A program made the translations under genes and the position numbers. Below, in pieces: positions 2,406-63,661 of a DNA stretch of 64,000 nt; the first letter of the stretch is position 1, and every line of letters begins with the position of its first letter. This DNA comes from Tetramitus jugosus (lineage: Eukaryota; Heterolobosea; Eutetramitea; Acrasida; Vahlkampfiidae): contig OW569345.1 of NCBI GenBank assembly GCA_937625935.1, positions 124,001-188,000 on the forward strand, given 5' to 3'. A model generated the notes under the pieces. That model made no database searches and was not told the DNA's origin. It saw only the letters and a program-made list of their open reading frames with translations.

Positions 2406-5243
2406 TTATGTATGGATCATGATCTCTAGAGCTGGATATTCTGTATGGAGTTCATCGTAGAGAGAAATGGGCTCGGGAGGTGGTTCGTCATCTAAATAAA
2501 AATTCAACTTAAAAGTCACAGCTTTCAACTTTGGAATTTGTTGCACCAATGACTTCAATGTGTCCCTAATTTGTGTTGGAGCCAGAGACACTACCTTCAA
2601 TTCGAGTCGCTCAAGTTCAGGGAACAGAGACAAGGATTGTAATGTACCGGCAATAATTGCGCTATCCCAGTGATGGTAAGAATAATTCATCATACATAAG
2701 GTTTTAAGGCAGGGATACATAATGCCATTGGGATTCAAAAGTCCAGTCACCTCCAATGATTGAATAGTCTGAGCAATACATGAGGGTAGTGTGAGATGGA
2801 TAACTTGATTCTGTGATAGTCTCAATGTTTTCAAGCTACAGAGATTGAGAGATTGCATCATTGACTCGTTTGAAGGTTTGAATGTTAAGTTGTCAAAGTT
2901 AATGTCGTCCAAATGAGTCCATGAGTTGAGTGCTTTTATCATTTCCAACTCTGTGTCAGGTTCCAGACTATTGATAGATAAAAGTGAGAGACGTTCGATA
3001 TTCGGAACTAACGTGCTCAATAACTTAAATGGTATACAATTCGATCCGTTTGGCAATCTGCTAATGGTAAGTTCTCTTACAGATGTATTCACTTTCTCCT
3101 TGCTCCAGAGCTCCCCATCAAATGTGGAGCTATCAAAAATAACATGTTCAAACATAATACATTCGAGGTTGATTGAGGAGTCTGTGAAAACATCCACGAG
3201 GAATTGTTGAGAAATCTCACAATTGTTGAGGTGCAATTGTCGTAGCATTTTCGAACCAACATTGATAAACGACCGCGGTGTGTGGTACGAGCTCACCAAA
3301 CTGTTCGTTGATAAGGCGAGTGTCTGAATCTTGGGACAATCAATAATATTTAGCTGTGCCAGCGAATTCGAGGACTTCATATCTAACACAGAGAGTACTG
3401 GACAATTCTCTATGTGACATTGAAGAAGCTCCCTTCCTGAACAAAAAAGCTTCGCTAACTTGATGCATGAGAGTAGCTTAAGAGAAACTGCTGAAGTGGG
3501 TGGAACGAAGTCATACATGTTTGGACATGATATCGTGACATTAGATACGGAGCATGAAAATAAATTCACAGACATCAGAGAGGGGGAGTAAATATCGACC
3601 GATAGACTCCTTCCACGGAGAGCCAAAGTGTGAAGCTTTGGAAGCTTTCTAAAATCGATATTCACACTACTCTCAATCGCCAAATCCTTCAAGTTGTACA
3701 ATGATTCAATGTACTGCACAGTGGTTGGACCTATGGCCGTTGATGAGAGATGCAATTTGGTCAAACAAGTGCAACCATCGATATTGGCAACACCTCCTTG
3801 ATTTCTCACCCGTACATCGAGAGAGTGGATTGTTTTGTGCTTGGAAACTATGTTGCATATCCTTTGGAAAGTGTTGGGATAGATGGAGGGTCTTCCAACA
3901 GTAAGACTCCTTAATGATAGATTGCTTGCTTCATACATCTTATCCAAGCAGTGCTTGATAAAGAGGCTATTCAATTCTTCATTCCATTCTTCTGGCCCGA
4001 ATGATAAATGTTCGAGAGAGGTTGCTCTTCCAATTGCAGATACAATAGCTTCAACTAGCATTTGGGTCATAGAACTCATCACATTGGAAATACGAATATC
4101 CAAATACACCAACTTTTCCATATTGCACTGGTTCATCTGATCTACAATGTACTGAATCGTATCTGTCTCTGAATCCAGTGACTCAAAATTGATACCAACA
4201 TTAAGATGACGTAGATTAGGCATCGTCTGCAGTGCCAAGATGAGATAGAGCGATGAAGTATGACGTTTCACCACTAATTTCTCCAATTGATTGAAGAATG
4301 TCAAGTCAGGAGATGCTCTGAGACATTGCTTATGAACCACTTCAGGGGTCAACAATTCCTCACCATAATCCATGCCTCCATAATTTGCTTCGTCTTCTTC
4401 ATCACTCTCCTCTTCTTCTTCTCCTTCCCTGTACTTTCGTCTCAGTTCTCTAGGCAACACAAATGACGTCTCATCGATCACTAATGACTTCAAGTTTGTA
4501 AAACTTTGCAACACTTCCACTATCTTGTACGACTTTGATGTTCCCAAATCGAAAGACTTCAATTGTGGAAAGCATGCAGCCAATCGGGACAAGTACCTCT
4601 TATCACTGATCGCATTACCGAGGTAAGCAATGTTGGACACGGACAAATTCTTAACTCTGTTGACAGAGGAACCATTGGTCTCATTTCGAGCGTTATCTCT
4701 AATCATTCGTTCTGTTGCTCTCGATGCAATGTGCAGCAACAGTGTAAATGACATCTCACCCGATATCGCAACACTCTCCAACAGTGCTTCATTGCGTATC
4801 ATCTGATCAAAATACCGCAGAGCTTTTCTCTCTGTCCAACCATAGGACTTGAAGTGTTGAGCCTCACTGTACATTACTTGATGAGTATCATCAGGTGAAG
4901 CAAACGTGGTCAATGCTACACTCTTGGACAAGGCATAGTACCACTGTTTACACACGAATTGGCCCAGAATCACATCATCCGAAGTCAAAAAATGAAAAAT
5001 ACTGGCTAGCAAGTTGTCTGTGAGAAAACGACGCACGTAGACACGTTCCTTGTCATCCTCCTCACCATTGCCACTCGTGCCACCATTCAAAACAACAGAC
5101 CGTGACAAATTGGTTTGACTGTAGAATTGAGTTTTCAATTGCTCAACTAGGTCAGAATTGGACTGTTGTTGCTTGAGTTTTTTGGCTAATGGAGCTCCAT
5201 TACTCTCCGGAGCTACCTGGTTGTCATCCAGTGCTCTCTTCAT
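2406..5243 (-). CDS. F-box/LRR protein, copy A
   Basis: A 945-residue protein. The N-terminus is short and basic (KRALDD... AKKLKQQQ), then an F-box lies at about residues 70-112 (RRFLTDNLLASIFHFL...). The rest is leucine-rich repeats of irregular length, broken by an acidic linker (EGEEEEESDEEDE) near residue 275. F-box/LRR proteins are usually substrate adaptors of SCF ubiquitin ligases, but the substrate cannot be told from sequence. The closest relative is copy B at 49080-52061. Copy A lacks about 48 residues that B has after the KQQQ motif, in frame. It shares a 160-bp divergent promoter with the PRKRIP1-like gene. Confidence 0.88.
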   Translation of the reverse strand: MKRALDDNQVAPESNGAPLAKKLKQQQSNSDLVEQLKTQFYSQTNLSRSVVLNGGTSGNGEEDDKERVYVRRFLTDNLLASIFHFLTSDDVILGQFVCKQWYYALSKSVALTTFASPDDTHQVMYSEAQHFKSYGWTERKALRYFDQMIRNEALLESVAISGEMSFTLLLHIASRATERMIRDNARNETNGSSVNRVKNLSVSNIAYLGNAISDKRYLSRLAACFPQLKSFDLGTSKSYKIVEVLQSFTNLKSLVIDETSFVLPRELRRKYREGEEEEESDEEDEANYGGMDYGEELLTPEVVHKQCLRASPDLTFFNQLEKLVVKRHTSSLYLILALQTMPNLRHLNVGINFESLDSETDTIQYIVDQMNQCNMEKLVYLDIRISNVMSSMTQMLVEAIVSAIGRATSLEHLSFGPEEWNEELNSLFIKHCLDKMYEASNLSLRSLTVGRPSIYPNTFQRICNIVSKHKTIHSLDVRVRNQGGVANIDGCTCLTKLHLSSTAIGPTTVQYIESLYNLKDLAIESSVNIDFRKLPKLHTLALRGRSLSVDIYSPSLMSVNLFSCSVSNVTISCPNMYDFVPPTSAVSLKLLSCIKLAKLFCSGRELLQCHIENCPVLSVLDMKSSNSLAQLNIIDCPKIQTLALSTNSLVSSYHTPRSFINVGSKMLRQLHLNNCEISQQFLVDVFTDSSINLECIMFEHVIFDSSTFDGELWSKEKVNTSVRELTISRLPNGSNCIPFKLLSTLVPNIERLSLLSINSLEPDTELEMIKALNSWTHLDDINFDNLTFKPSNESMMQSLNLCSLKTLRLSQNQVIHLTLPSCIAQTIQSLEVTGLLNPNGIMYPCLKTLCMMNYSYHHWDSAIIAGTLQSLSLFPELERLELKVVSLAPTQIRDTLKSLVQQIPKLKAVTFKLNFYLDDEPPPEPISLYDELHTEYPALEIMIHT

Positions 5244-5403
5244 CTCTTTTGTCTATTCAACATCTTTAAAAGGGTTTTAAAAGTCAACAAAATGCTGGAA
5301 GGCGGCAACGCGATTAAGCCGACAAAACGCCCGAATTTCTTCAATGAAGCATGCGATAAAAAGCGATCACACAGACAGACACAGAAAACAACGAATTCGC
5401 AAC
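5244..5403. promoter_or_regulatory. Short bidirectional promoter, block A
   Basis: Only 160 bases separate the head-to-head start codons of the F-box/LRR and PRKRIP1-like genes. The same spacer is present at 48917-49079 in block B. In B a 2-base deletion destroys an upstream in-frame ATG (at 5344 in A), which argues that translation of the PRKRIP1-like gene starts at 5404. Confidence 0.6.
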
Positions 5404-6021
5404 ATGTCCTCATCGTCTGACCCTACGGCCGATGTTCCACTGATACACAGAGCCGATCTAGAAATTAAACAAACCAGTTCTTCCACTGCCGGTGCTGGTT
5501 CCGGAGAATTTCACACCTATGGAAAGCTTCGAAAGAAGCAAATGATGAGAGAAGAGCAAATGGAGCTCGAATGGAAACAGGAACGAGCAGAAAAGGAGTT
5601 TAATGAGAAACTGGAGCAGAGAAAACTGGAGATTGAAGAGAAGCGAATAAGCAAAGCTCTCAAACGAAAGAGGAAAAAGGAAAAGAAGAACAAGCCAGAA
5701 AAAGAAGAGGCAGCTGACTCACGTGAACAGCAACAACAACAAGATTTACGAGATGACACATCTGTGGAGGAGGAGGAGAAGAAGAATGGTGGTGATCAGA
5801 TAACTGCTCCAGATCAAGTTCAAGAACAACAAGAACAGCAAGAACAGCAGAAGAGTGAAAAGAATGATCAACTACAACAGCAGCAGCACAACACAAATAA
5901 GAAGCGAAAGAGGATAAGGAAAAAGCCAAAGGTGCAACATGAAGAAAGTAACAACCATCAGCAGCAACAACAAGATGATCTTGAGAGCTCACACGAAAAA
6001 AAATCCTCAAAAACAAAGTAA
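5404..6021 (+). CDS. PRKRIP1-like (DUF1168) spliceosome-associated protein, copy A
   Basis: A 205-residue protein with the conserved DUF1168 core. The signature GAGSGEFHTYGKLRKK is at about residues 30-45, followed by a long charged helix (REEQMELEWKQERAEKEFNEK) and a Lys/Arg-rich nuclear segment (KALKRKRKKEKK). The C-terminus is Gln/Glu rich. In other eukaryotes PRKRIP1 is a helical component of catalytic spliceosomes. The frame stays open upstream to an ATG at 5344, but copy B breaks that extension, so 5404 is preferred. The paralogue at 48341-48916 has a different C-terminus. Confidence 0.8.
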   Translation: MSSSSDPTADVPLIHRADLEIKQTSSSTAGAGSGEFHTYGKLRKKQMMREEQMELEWKQERAEKEFNEKLEQRKLEIEEKRISKALKRKRKKEKKNKPEKEEAADSREQQQQQDLRDDTSVEEEEKKNGGDQITAPDQVQEQQEQQEQQKSEKNDQLQQQQHNTNKKRKRIRKKPKVQHEESNNHQQQQQDDLESSHEKKSSKTK

Positions 6022-6050
6022 AATAAACAATAATAATAATAAGCAGCAGA

Positions 6051-6959
6051 ATGAGTCACAACAACAGCTGCGCACCACCAGTCGTGGCCACTGAACAAAT
6101 CCAACAACAATTGCAATCTGTGCTTTCCACATTGCAACAACAAGGCATCAAGGGTGACGATATCGATACTGCAAAGTATGAACACATTCTCCATCCCAAC
6201 AACAATGAACACTTGAATGATCACTTGGAGGAACAAAAAGAGAAGCACAAGCCTATTGAGTCATACATTGATCACACAGTTCTCAAGCCAAATGCCACTC
6301 TGAAAGATATTGAACAATTGTGTCAAGAGGCCATTGATCACCACTTTTATGCTGTATGTGTTAATTTGTGTCGATTGGAGACTTGTGTGGACAAGTTGAA
6401 GGGATCAGGTGTCAAGACGGCAGTTGTCGTTGGTTTTCCTCTCGGTGCCACTTCCACTCTTGTTAAAGTACAGGAGACGAGTGAGGCACTTCAACTGGGT
6501 GCCAATGAAATTGATATGGTTATCAATGTGGGTAAGCTGTTGGATGGAGAATATGCTTTCGTCTATCAAGAAATTAAGCAATTGGCACAGCTCTGTAACA
6601 CTCACGGTGCAAAATTGAAGGTTATTCTGGAGACGAGTCAGTTGCCAAGTGATATGGTGTTGATTGATGCCTGTTTGTTGTGTTTGTTGGCTGGTGCTCA
6701 CTTTGTAAAGACGTGCACGGGTTTCATGGGCGGTGGCGCAACGTTGGAGCATGTATTGCTGATGAGAAGAGTCGTCGGTTTCAAGAGTGGTGTTCAAGTC
6801 AAGGCATCAGGTGGCGTCAGAAGCTATCCAGATGCACATCGTTTGATCCAAGAGGGATACATTGACCGTATTGGAACGAGCTCTGGTATTGCCATTATCA
6901 GTGGTTCCAAGCAACAAACAGCCAACAATAGTAGTAGCTCTAACCCAGATGCCTATTGA
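6051..6959 (+). CDS. deoC: Deoxyribose-phosphate aldolase
   Basis: 302 residues. A Gln/Asn-rich N-terminal extension of about 75 residues precedes the DeoC TIM barrel, which opens with IESYIDHTVLKP. The Schiff-base lysine lies in HFVKTCTGF (Lys220); the usual FVKTSTGF has Ser where this has Cys. A second conserved lysine is in VQVKASGGVR, and GVRSYPDAH follows as expected. The enzyme splits 2-deoxyribose-5-phosphate into glyceraldehyde-3-phosphate and acetaldehyde during deoxynucleoside catabolism. It starts 29 bases after the PRKRIP1-like gene on the same strand. A broken fragment of this gene lies at 48276-48356. Confidence 0.95.
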   Translation: MSHNNSCAPPVVATEQIQQQLQSVLSTLQQQGIKGDDIDTAKYEHILHPNNNEHLNDHLEEQKEKHKPIESYIDHTVLKPNATLKDIEQLCQEAIDHHFYAVCVNLCRLETCVDKLKGSGVKTAVVVGFPLGATSTLVKVQETSEALQLGANEIDMVINVGKLLDGEYAFVYQEIKQLAQLCNTHGAKLKVILETSQLPSDMVLIDACLLCLLAGAHFVKTCTGFMGGGATLEHVLLMRRVVGFKSGVQVKASGGVRSYPDAHRLIQEGYIDRIGTSSGIAIISGSKQQTANNSSSSNPDAY

Positions 6960-6999
6960 AAAGTGATCAAATAGAATGTTAATTTTATGGCACATACAT

Positions 7000-7179
7000 T
7001 TATTTCGTTCTTGGCTCCATCCAAGGTACTGGCTTCCACTCTGTAGGAGCGTCCATGTCGAGCATGATGAAGCCTTCTTCCGGCTCCTCCACTATTCCCA
7101 ATATCACCAACAAATTGTTAGCCAGCAATACTGGCAACAACAGCAACTTCTTGTTGCTGGTGCGTCTTCCAATGGCCAT
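7000..7179 (-). CDS. Small single-span membrane protein, 59 residues
   Basis: Starts MAIGRRTSNKK, followed by a hydrophobic span (LLLLPVLLANNLLVILGIV) and then an acidic, Pro/Trp-containing tail (EEPEEGFIMLDMDAP). The pattern of a basic N-terminus, one membrane span and a short tail is typical of small mitochondrial inner-membrane subunits. I cannot name the family. It runs convergent with deoC, 40 bases after its stop. It is divergent from the small plus-strand frame that begins near 7235. Confidence 0.55.
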   Translation of the reverse strand: MAIGRRTSNKKLLLLPVLLANNLLVILGIVEEPEEGFIMLDMDAPTEWKPVPWMEPRTK

Positions 7180-47213: not shown

Positions 47214-47286
47214 TGCCGAAAGCGTGGATCGAACACGCGACCTTAAGATCTTCAGTCTCACGCTCTCCCAACTGAGCTATTTCGGC
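47214..47286 (-). tRNA. tRNA-Phe (anticodon GAA)
   Basis: 73-nt cloverleaf on the minus strand, no intron. The acceptor GCCGAAA pairs with TTTCGGC, the D arm is GCTC/GAGC, the anticodon loop is CTGAAGA giving GAA, and the T arm contains GTTCGATCC. The discriminator is A. Its 5' end faces the LINE that begins 49 bases away at 47336. Confidence 0.96.
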
Positions 47287-47327
47287 GATATATTTATAGA
47301 ACTATTAATAAATTAATCGCCGATCAA

Positions 47328-47335
47328 TGATGGTG
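47328..47335. repeat. Left target-site duplication of LINE 1 (TGATGGTG)
   Basis: TGATGGTG here and at 48261-48268 flank the element exactly. Two A bases before it also match, but they cannot be told apart from the poly-A tail. The left copy lies 42-49 bp upstream of tRNA-Phe. Confidence 0.75.
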
Positions 47336-48260
47336 TTCCCTCCTGCAAGGTCGGAGCAAGGTCGTATGAGGTGCTGAAAGTGTTAATATCCCAAATGGAT
47401 GGATGTGGATGTGGAGGGAAAAGGTCCACCGAAGGTGCAGAACCGGCATTGTACAAAGGAAATCTGCATGTGGAAAGTAGATCGCATCTCCAGTCGTTGT
47501 TTGATCAAGAAAGAAGTGCAAGAATAGATGAAGACGAGCGATGTTGGCTACAGAGGGCAGCAAATAACAGTGGTGCAGATTTTAGCTTCATCAAATACCC
47601 ACATGGTATAGACAGGAAGCTGGAGTGGTTCCATGCACAGGTACGCAGTGGCACACTCCACACAGCAGAAGTTGTACGATATATGTACAACACTGGTGAG
47701 GAACAGGTCAATTGCAGCTGGTGTCAGAAGGAGCCCGAAAGTGTGCTGCATTGCTTGATAAGGTGTCCAAGGGCCATTATGGTTAGAAGGCAATTGGCTG
47801 TGAAAGTGGGACATGAGCTCAAGAAGATGGGAATCCCCGAATCTGCCTACGTCGATGTCTGGTTCGATGAGGTGCGACTGAAGGAAGGAAAAGTTGTGAG
47901 GCAACCGCTCAAAAAGTCTAGCCGTGAACTGCTGCAAGGAATGATGGGTATAGAAACGGACGCCATCATGGAAGTCGCTGAAGGCCTTGTGTCTGGAGGA
48001 ATGAAGAAGACGCTGGCACAGAAGAAAGCCAAAACATATGTGAACAGTGTCAAGAGGAGATGTCTCAAGACTCTCCACCACCTGTTCATTACAACGAAGG
48101 ATAAATGTAATCAACGGCAATGACGCTTTCCGGCGTCATTGCCTACCAACTGGAAGCTAACCAGGCCCACGCTCTTCGAGCGTAGGCAAGTGAATAAGCA
48201 AAGATAATAAAAAGAGCAACCGAAATGGTTGTATTAAAAAAAAAAAAAAAAAAAAAAAAA
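47336..48260 (+). mobile_element. 5'-truncated non-LTR retrotransposon (LINE), 925 bp, tRNA-linked
   Basis: The element lies between the TGATGGTG copies and carries the C-terminal end of a reverse transcriptase-type ORF, a structured 3' UTR and a 25-base poly-A (48236-48260). Hairpins: an 11-bp stem 48116-48126/48133-48143 with the stop codon in it, a 6-bp stem 48169-48174/48178-48183, and a terminal CAACC/GGTTG stem at 48217-48221/48227-48231 just before the poly-A. The ORF starts in the middle of the reverse transcriptase protein, so 5' truncation happened on insertion. Its truncated 5' end faces the 5' end of tRNA-Phe, 49 bases away. Confidence 0.9.
47338..48123 (+). pseudogene. C-terminal fragment of LINE polyprotein with zf-RVT finger
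   Basis: The frame is open from the 5' edge of the element, with no ATG at the edge, for 261 residues. A CCHC motif, C-x2-C-x8-H-x4-C (CSWCQKEPESVLHCLIRC), matches the zinc-binding tail found after reverse transcriptase in many LINE proteins (zf-RVT). The remainder is basic helices ending in RRCLKTLHHLF. The endonuclease and reverse transcriptase are missing, so the copy is dead. The last 55 residues align with the 63.4-kb element, with roughly half the positions identical by eye. Confidence 0.8.
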
Positions 48261-48268
48261 TGATGGTG
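48261..48268. repeat. Right target-site duplication of LINE 1 (TGATGGTG)
   Basis: Exact copy of 47328-47335, directly after the poly-A. Confidence 0.75.
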
Positions 48269-63291: not shown

Positions 63292-63365
63292 TACAGGCTA
63301 TGAGAATCGAACTCATGACCTTAACGGTGTAAACGTTACGTTCTAACCGACTGAACTAAGCCTGC
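63292..63365 (-). tRNA. tRNA-Val (anticodon TAC)
   Basis: 74-nt cloverleaf on the minus strand. The acceptor GCAGGCT pairs with AGCCTGT (one G-T at the end), the D arm is GTTC/GAAC, the anticodon loop TTTACAC gives TAC, the T arm is ATGAG-TTCGATT-CTCAT, and the discriminator is A. The 5' end faces the LINE tail, which begins 46 bases away at 63412. Confidence 0.94.
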
Positions 63366-63396: not shown

Positions 63397-63411
63397 TGGG
63401 CGGAGGTATGG
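63397..63411. repeat. Left target-site duplication of LINE 2
   Basis: TGGGCGGAGGTATGG, 15 bases, repeated perfectly at 63647-63661 immediately after the oligo-A. It lies 32-46 bp upstream of tRNA-Val. Confidence 0.9.
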
Positions 63412-63646
63412 TAGTACCTCCAGGGAACGATGGGTTTAAGTTTAGAGAACGACGCTGTCGACCAGGTAATGGACGCACTGATAAAAAATGGGATGAAACA
63501 AGAAGTAGCACAGCGAAAGGCCCGTAGTTTTGTGTGCTGGGTAAAGAGTCGCTGCATCACAGTGCTGCACAGACTCTACCAGCAATGGGAAACTAAAAGA
63601 AAGAAGGACAGAGTAATAAAGAGCAACCGCGTGTTGTATTAAAAAA
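63412..63646 (+). mobile_element. 5'-truncated LINE tail, 235 bp, flanked by 15-bp duplication
   Basis: A short LINE copy. It carries the last 75 codons of the same C-terminal protein as LINE 1, then a stop, a CAAC/GTTG hairpin (63624-63627/63633-63636) and six A. The perfect 15-bp flanking duplication shows it moved as a unit. The 3' end is like LINE 1 (AATAAAGAGCAACCG...), but the coding sequence is clearly diverged, so it comes from another lineage or an older copy. The truncated 5' end faces tRNA-Val 46 bases away, as with LINE 1. Confidence 0.88.
63415..63642 (+). pseudogene. C-terminal fragment of LINE protein
   Basis: 75 residues without an ATG of its own at the 5' edge. LQGTMGLSLENDAV aligns with LQGMMGIETDAI of LINE 1, then GMKQEVAQRKARSFV with GMKKTLAQKKAKTYV. 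The zinc finger is lost through truncation. It is not functional. Confidence 0.8.
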
Positions 63647-63661
63647 TGGGCGGAGGTATGG
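63647..63661. repeat. Right target-site duplication of LINE 2
   Basis: Exact copy of 63397-63411. Confidence 0.9.

Follow-up and report, generated by a model that had tools for sequence, protein, structure and literature searches.

LINEs of the heterolobosean Tetramitus jugosus lie mostly at sharp, type-specific distances upstream of facing tRNA and 5S genes

The LINE families described here, from the heterolobosean Tetramitus jugosus, lie mostly upstream of facing tRNA and 5S genes, and we propose, with a probability of about 0.87, that the Pol III initiation complex places them there, most likely through TFIIIB. According to this mechanism, a pre-integration complex that includes the ORF1 protein, the ORF2 protein, or both would dock on this initiation complex, TFIIIB being the most likely contact, and the docked complex would set the endonuclease at the upstream edge of TFIIIB. 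The type-specific distances at which the elements are found would reflect protein geometry, and copies that carry only ORF1 would be moved in trans by ORF2.

Two copies lie in the window, which is the whole analyzed stretch of 64,000 nucleotides and corresponds to positions 124001-188000 of contig 2 of the assembly. The first is a type A copy whose targeted Pol III gene is a tRNA-Phe (GAA) gene on the minus strand at 47214-47286, identified by ARAGORN and by Rfam (RF00005, 68.3 bits). Upstream of this gene, the tRNA-proximal copy of the target-site duplication, AATGATGGTG, occupies positions 47326-47335, with its near edge 39 bp upstream of tRNA-Phe. It is followed by the 5'-truncated LINE of 923 bp, recognized from genome matches (47336-48258, plus strand), and by the distal copy of the duplication (48259-48268). 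The element includes the 3' end of ORF2, of 250 aa counted from a GTG (47371-48123, plus strand), with a C-C-H-C cluster identified by eye. A 3'-terminal hairpin common to the copies, AGAGCAACCGAAATGGTTGTATTAAAA, was located by the pattern search and the tail list at 48213-48239 (plus strand), and the poly(A) tail of 25 bases is at 48236-48260 (plus strand). The duplication around this element can be read as TGATGGTG, or as the 10-bp AATGATGGTG when two A's of the tail are included. The 5' end of tRNA-Phe is 49 bases from the element and 39 from the start of the duplication; a 5'-truncated LINE with a 25-base poly(A), flanked by repeats and 49 bp from tRNA-Phe, is what the first-pass annotation had described, and its coordinates agree with ours.

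All 885 aligned bases of the 47.3-kb copy are identical to those of the L020 copy, which adjoins a 5S gene of contig 10, and the L023 copy on contig 13 has 98.7% identity to it over 900. We take the 47.3-kb copy to be a young LINE with a truncated 5' end. It codes the end of ORF2, with 61% identity over 259 residues (tblastn) to the RT ORF of the L010 copy, while a Pfam search with this ORF2 piece gave no match at E<=0.001. A 13-bp match lying 37 kb from this copy is a spurious pairing of the duplication search and was excluded from the count of 27 insertions presented below. The second element in the window, the existence of which at 63.4 kb had also been indicated by the first-pass annotation, is real. 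Its targeted gene is tRNA-Val (TAC), on the minus strand at 63292-63365, and the proximal copy of its 15-bp duplication, TGGGCGGAGGTATGG, is found at 63397-63411 with the near edge 31 bp upstream of tRNA-Val. The 5'-truncated type B copy of 235 bp (63412-63646, plus strand) and the distal copy of TGGGCGGAGGTATGG (63647-63661) come next. This element has 68% amino acid identity over 57 residues to an ORF2 fragment in L054.

The 47.3-kb and 63.4-kb elements were used as queries to search the 26.35-Mb assembly of 56 contigs. When their matches were merged, at least 77 places were obtained, 76 of them with LINE sequence and one with only the tRNA-Phe gene carried in the first query; all LINE copy counts are lower bounds, since only the best-scoring candidates were considered. 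We read 70 of the 76 LINE places, which form 66 stacks, and mapped them by protein and DNA similarity. The 5' edge is visible in 45 of the 66 stacks, and in the other 21 the read sequence starts inside the element. A facing Pol III gene adjoins the 5' edge of the element in 39 of the 45 stacks, a tRNA gene in 32 and a 5S gene in seven. Thus, the idea of a tRNA-seeking LINE system, raised from a single locus, turned out to be general, although not in the form of a target restricted to tRNA genes, since seven of the 39 genes are 5S. The similarity edge is at most 82 bp from the gene, except in L040 (204), L055 (156), and L019 (116); in L013 and L067 it overlapped the gene, and these two were placed by sequence reading and RNA-family matches. 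Six extra facing pairs were found with tRNA-Leu and tRNA-Ile (L011), tRNA-Ala (L014), tRNA-Tyr (L020), tRNA-Gly (L026), and a second 5S gene (L021). The plot of copies against tRNA 5' ends that had been suggested for checking the idea, drawn from the 70 of 76 LINE places, shows a sharp peak in one orientation.

The same arrangement is observed when coordinates alone are compared. Between 45 of the 56 RT rows and 53 nuclear tRNAs there are five pairs within 6 kb, and in all five the two face each other on the 5' side of the tRNA; one of these pairs, C18:52778, is the read locus L031. Two further copies face the tRNAs at C18:90744 and C23:91520, with their RT starts at distances of 2,565 and 2,547 bp from the tRNA, as would fit long copies that begin at the usual spacing. 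In the assembly, the B-box pattern has 534 matches compared with 86 for the reversed pattern, a difference that suggests about 450 canonical tRNA genes in the genome. For 5S, a search with the first 19 bases, allowing at most one mismatch, gave 124 matches scattered over many contigs (for example at L018, L021, and L028), and no long tandem 5S array is present among the first 100 of the 124 matches listed. Two U6 genes were found, neither of them beside the LINE places when compared by eye. As a separate observation on the assembly, contigs C54 and C56 share identical tRNA positions, which suggests a duplicated organelle contig.

The target-site duplications allow the insertion points to be defined. 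When duplications were sought anywhere upstream of the elements, without reference to genes, 36 rows were obtained, of which 26 adjoin a facing Pol III gene, eight lie against the tail of a neighboring copy within a tandem array, one does neither (L010), and one is the spurious far match mentioned above. Chance had been considered for one case alone, and it does not account for these positions: 26 of the 27 non-tandem insertions, including one nested pair at a single gene (L019), fall 22-41 bp upstream of a facing gene. Under a generous ceiling of 1,593 first-look tRNA candidates plus the 124 5S matches, the probability that a random insertion falls in this interval is about 0.00065, and fewer than 0.02 such insertions are expected (binomial). 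A search confined to the flanks recovered a duplication in 28 of the 48 flanks of facing genes, with lengths of 10-20 bp and a mean of 15.5; the 20 flanks in which it is missing include some without a LINE and others with decayed copies.

Measured from the near edge of the duplication, the distance to the gene depends on the type of element. In type A, it is 37-40 bp for tRNA genes (mean 39.1, sd 1.1, n=7) and 33-36 bp for 5S genes (mean 34.7, n=3); in type B, 29-32 bp for tRNA genes (mean 30.2, sd 1.0, n=10) and 28 bp for the one 5S gene; and in type C, which has only ORF1, 27-28 bp for tRNA genes (mean 27.4, sd 0.5, n=5) and 22 bp for the one 5S gene. One further duplication, outside these three types, has its near edge at 36 bp. 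The single spacing that the first-pass annotation had assumed is therefore replaced by three type-specific distances. In all three types the mean distance to 5S genes (n=3, 1, and 1) is shorter than the mean distance to tRNA genes. The far edge, which is the element start, has means of 44-54 bp and is looser, with sd of 2.5 (A), 2.4 (B), and 1.3 (C), a spread that may be partly due to the one mismatch allowed in measuring. If insertion follows ordinary target-primed reverse transcription, the near edge would correspond to the position of the first nick.

These distances bear on the possibility that elements insert at random and that selection spares only those copies that occupy a safe gap in front of a tRNA gene. 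Such gaps are scarce in the window, where genes are dense and long ORFs numerous, as this process would require; however, selection would not yield a single orientation, near edges that agree to about 1 bp, or distances that depend on the type of element, and near-identical young copies already sit at tRNA and 5S genes. We find this explanation scarcely credible. An endonuclease that reads a DNA sequence which happens to occur upstream of Pol III genes is also highly improbable. There is indeed a weak bias at the two bases flanking the nick, the preceding base being A in only one of the 28 duplication-bearing junctions and the following base A or T in 25 of 28, within A/T-rich flanks. Nevertheless, these junctions span 17 tRNA isotypes and 5S and display no clear nick motif beyond A/T richness, which is also the main feature of the upstream flanks examined at 39 tRNA genes. 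What the 17 tRNA isotypes and the 5S genes have in common is the Pol III initiation complex.

The tether could also be RNA polymerase III itself instead of TFIIIB, in the way that Ty1 integrase binds Rpc40 and other subunits. A polymerase tether has the same target genes and would act at tRNA and 5S genes alike, but Ty1 spreads over about 1 kb upstream, according to the available portion of PMC5911963, whereas the near-edge sd of about 1 bp measured here fits one fixed DNA-bound complex. We therefore regard a polymerase tether as decidedly unlikely and retain placement by the initiation complex, most likely through TFIIIB, as our reading.

The structure of the elements was examined in the longer copies. 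A stop-free copy on contig 20 has an ORF1 of about 460 codons that overlaps ORF2 (1,285 codons) in the string ATGTTGA. In Pfam searches, ORF2 has an N-terminal APE-like endonuclease domain (Exo_endo_phos, 24.7 bits with a cut-off of 24.5) and a reverse transcriptase domain (RVT_1, 84 bits). At the C-terminus of ORF2 in the other copies scanned, a C-C-H-C cluster is visible by eye, with a zf-RVT match of 15 bits that is below the cut-off; no RNase H or integrase domain was found in ORF2 and the ORFs scanned. The elements are thus APE-type LINEs, defined by an APE-like endonuclease and an RT, a poly(A), target-site duplications, and frequent 5' truncation. An R2-like LINE, with a C-terminal restriction-like endonuclease and a single ORF, is ruled out by the two ORFs and the N-terminal APE-like domain, and a Ty3-like LTR element by the poly(A) tail, the duplications, and the lack of an integrase domain in the ORFs scanned. 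Before the poly(A), the CAAC..GTTG hairpin is kept in 66 of 88 tail-like matches. The ORF2 proteins of types A and B are only 50-53% identical, yet both types target. A related public protein shows 71% identity over 30% of the query and, by eye, an endonuclease-like start.

For ORF1, a search of 5.8 billion proteins, in which 4,410 candidates were scored, found no relative at E<=0.001, and Pfam gave nothing above its cut-offs. A profile of four ORF1 sequences returned three PDB rows, one for 8vd6 (CAP repeat) with E of 1.4e-10 and two with E of 0.7-0.8. They were taken as spurious, in the case of 8vd6 because no single stretch passes, the best one having 28 residues. At about 30% identity, ORF1 is common to ORF1-only elements of 1.2-1.4 kb, found in L012, L016, and L027. 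L016 contains three tandem ORF1-only copies (oriented 3036-7003) with one common target-site duplication, as expected if one point is hit repeatedly. ORF1-only elements related to an autonomous LINE exist in mammals as HAL1 half-LINEs; unlike HAL1, the ORF1-only elements described here are aimed at Pol III genes and lie 27-28 bp from tRNA genes.

Not all loci follow the general arrangement. A facing gene is absent in six of the 45 stacks: L010, L014, L022, L030, L034, and L065. L010 is a type A copy (oriented 4282-7001) with a clean 17-bp duplication, located about 110 bp past the end of a gene that appears carrier-like by eye; no RNA-family match reached the gathering score there, and one sub-threshold match had 26.5 bits. 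By eye, L014, L022, L030, and L034 appear damaged, and an endonuclease-like ORF beside L014 is separate and not joined to the LINE. L065 keeps its tail, with only 178 bp of upstream sequence present. The word ACCATCAATG, seen by eye upstream of both L010 and L065, is at different distances in the two and was taken as chance. In L017, a decayed LINE remnant (4254-4400) starts 39 bp from a tRNA-Cys gene, on its 3' side, on the same strand and without a duplication; it is possibly a downstream insertion or rearranged debris. In L018, the 3' end of the element is faced by a second 5S gene.

The elements work like TRE5-A of Dictyostelium, a comparison already made in the first-pass annotation, which had spoken of a different lineage; the host, a heterolobosean, is indeed far from Dictyostelium. 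A CDC50 protein encoded in the window has its nearest named matches in Willaertia magna, Naegleria fowleri, and Acrasis kona, each with 52% identity, and an environmental sequence matches it with 98% identity; judged by this single protein, the host is a heterolobosean distinct from these three species. As described in the available parts of PMC5911963, PMC5391098, and PMC5006619, TRE5-A is also located upstream of tRNA genes in the opposite orientation, has two ORFs and an ORF2 with the order APE-RT-zinc, uses 5S genes at a closer position, and has a non-autonomous form. Its distances are 35-42 bp at 5S genes and 40-54 bp at tRNA genes, and the authors link the shorter distance at 5S genes to the position of TFIIIB (accessible sections of PMC5391098 and PMC5911963 for the distances, and of PMC5391098 for the link). 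The 40-54 bp of TRE5, counted from the mature tRNA, may be compared with our near edges at 27-40 bp or our far-edge means at 44-54 bp, depending on which edge was published. The elements studied here differ from TRE5-A in their heterolobosean host, in an ORF1 without a found relative, and in a spacing that falls into two main classes separated by about 9-12 bp. Moreover, the promoter-bearing A-module that TRE5-A has at its 5' end is absent in the five ORF1-only copies whose 5' end is defined by a duplication. Some dictyostelid TRE5s have windows of 38-95 or 31-98 bp (partial text of PMC5006619), in contrast with the near-edge spread of about 1 bp per type that we observe.

The similarities could be due to descent from, or exchange with, a dictyostelid TRE5, in which case our elements would be a distant TRE5 branch, a relationship compatible with TFIIIB docking. 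The common orientation, the APE-RT-zinc ORF2, the presence of an ORF1, the use of 5S genes, and the non-autonomous derivative, all known for TRE5 from the articles cited above as far as available, are in its favor. Against it, ORF1 has no relative at E<=0.001, a point of little weight because the ORF1s of TRE elements are mutually unlike too (PMC5006619, in the part available). In addition, identity to the RT relatives falls from 71% to 27%, and no dictyostelid name appears in the 120 of 129 rows listed, most of which are unnamed. We consider a TRE5 origin rather unlikely.

Other systems resemble ours in part. Polysphondylium NLTR-B (39-64 bp) and D. purpureum NLTR-A (2-6 bp) are non-LTR elements upstream of tRNA genes, but they carry an RNase H, which was not found in the ORF2 proteins scanned here, and their hosts are dictyostelids (PMC5911963, available portion). 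Yeast Ty3, acting through TFIIIB, and dictyostelid DGLT-A are placed precisely upstream of Pol III genes (PMC5911963 and PMC5006619, in part); they are LTR elements with an integrase and a different mechanism of DNA insertion. Zorro3 of Candida albicans, a LINE of the L1 group, has two ORFs, A-rich flanks, and a 5' UTR that is very short, but it targets poly(A) sites and has no known preference for Pol III genes (PMC7175516, as far as available). The sections of PMC7175516 and PMC13269885 at our disposal contain no tRNA-targeting LINE.

The position of the elements may also be related to their expression. Five ORF1-only copies in which a duplication defines the 5' end (L012, the three of L016, and L027) begin with an AACGC-like start, and about 5-25 nt precede their first ATG. 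The autonomous copy, from contig 20, looks similar: its read sequence opens with 17 A's, GC, and then the ATG. Since so little sequence precedes ORF1, the elements may lack a promoter upstream of it, and we tentatively raise the possibility that the target supplies one, the head-to-head Pol III gene starting transcription. For a new full-length copy, the source would be divergent activity or open chromatin of the initiation complex of the target gene. This reading is weakened by Zorro3, whose very short 5' UTR is not accompanied by any known tRNA preference, and by the autonomous copy, whose 5' boundary is outside the read sequence. If it is true, expression would depend on precise targeting, which would then provide more than a safe haven.

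In the openly licensed literature, as far as its texts were available, dictyostelids are the only organisms for which LINEs upstream of tRNA or other Pol III genes are described. The elements of T. jugosus add a second case from Discoba, a branch of eukaryotes that is very distant, and their ORF1 has no found relative, yet they share the same orientation, the use of 5S genes, and a non-autonomous derivative. This suggests that LINEs have come upon the Pol III initiation complex as a docking site on more than one occasion, unless the two cases prove to have a common descent. With the spacing classes, the geometry of docking can be tested directly, and a LINE machinery whose insertions fall at multicopy sites, most of them harmless, is of interest for tools of gene insertion.
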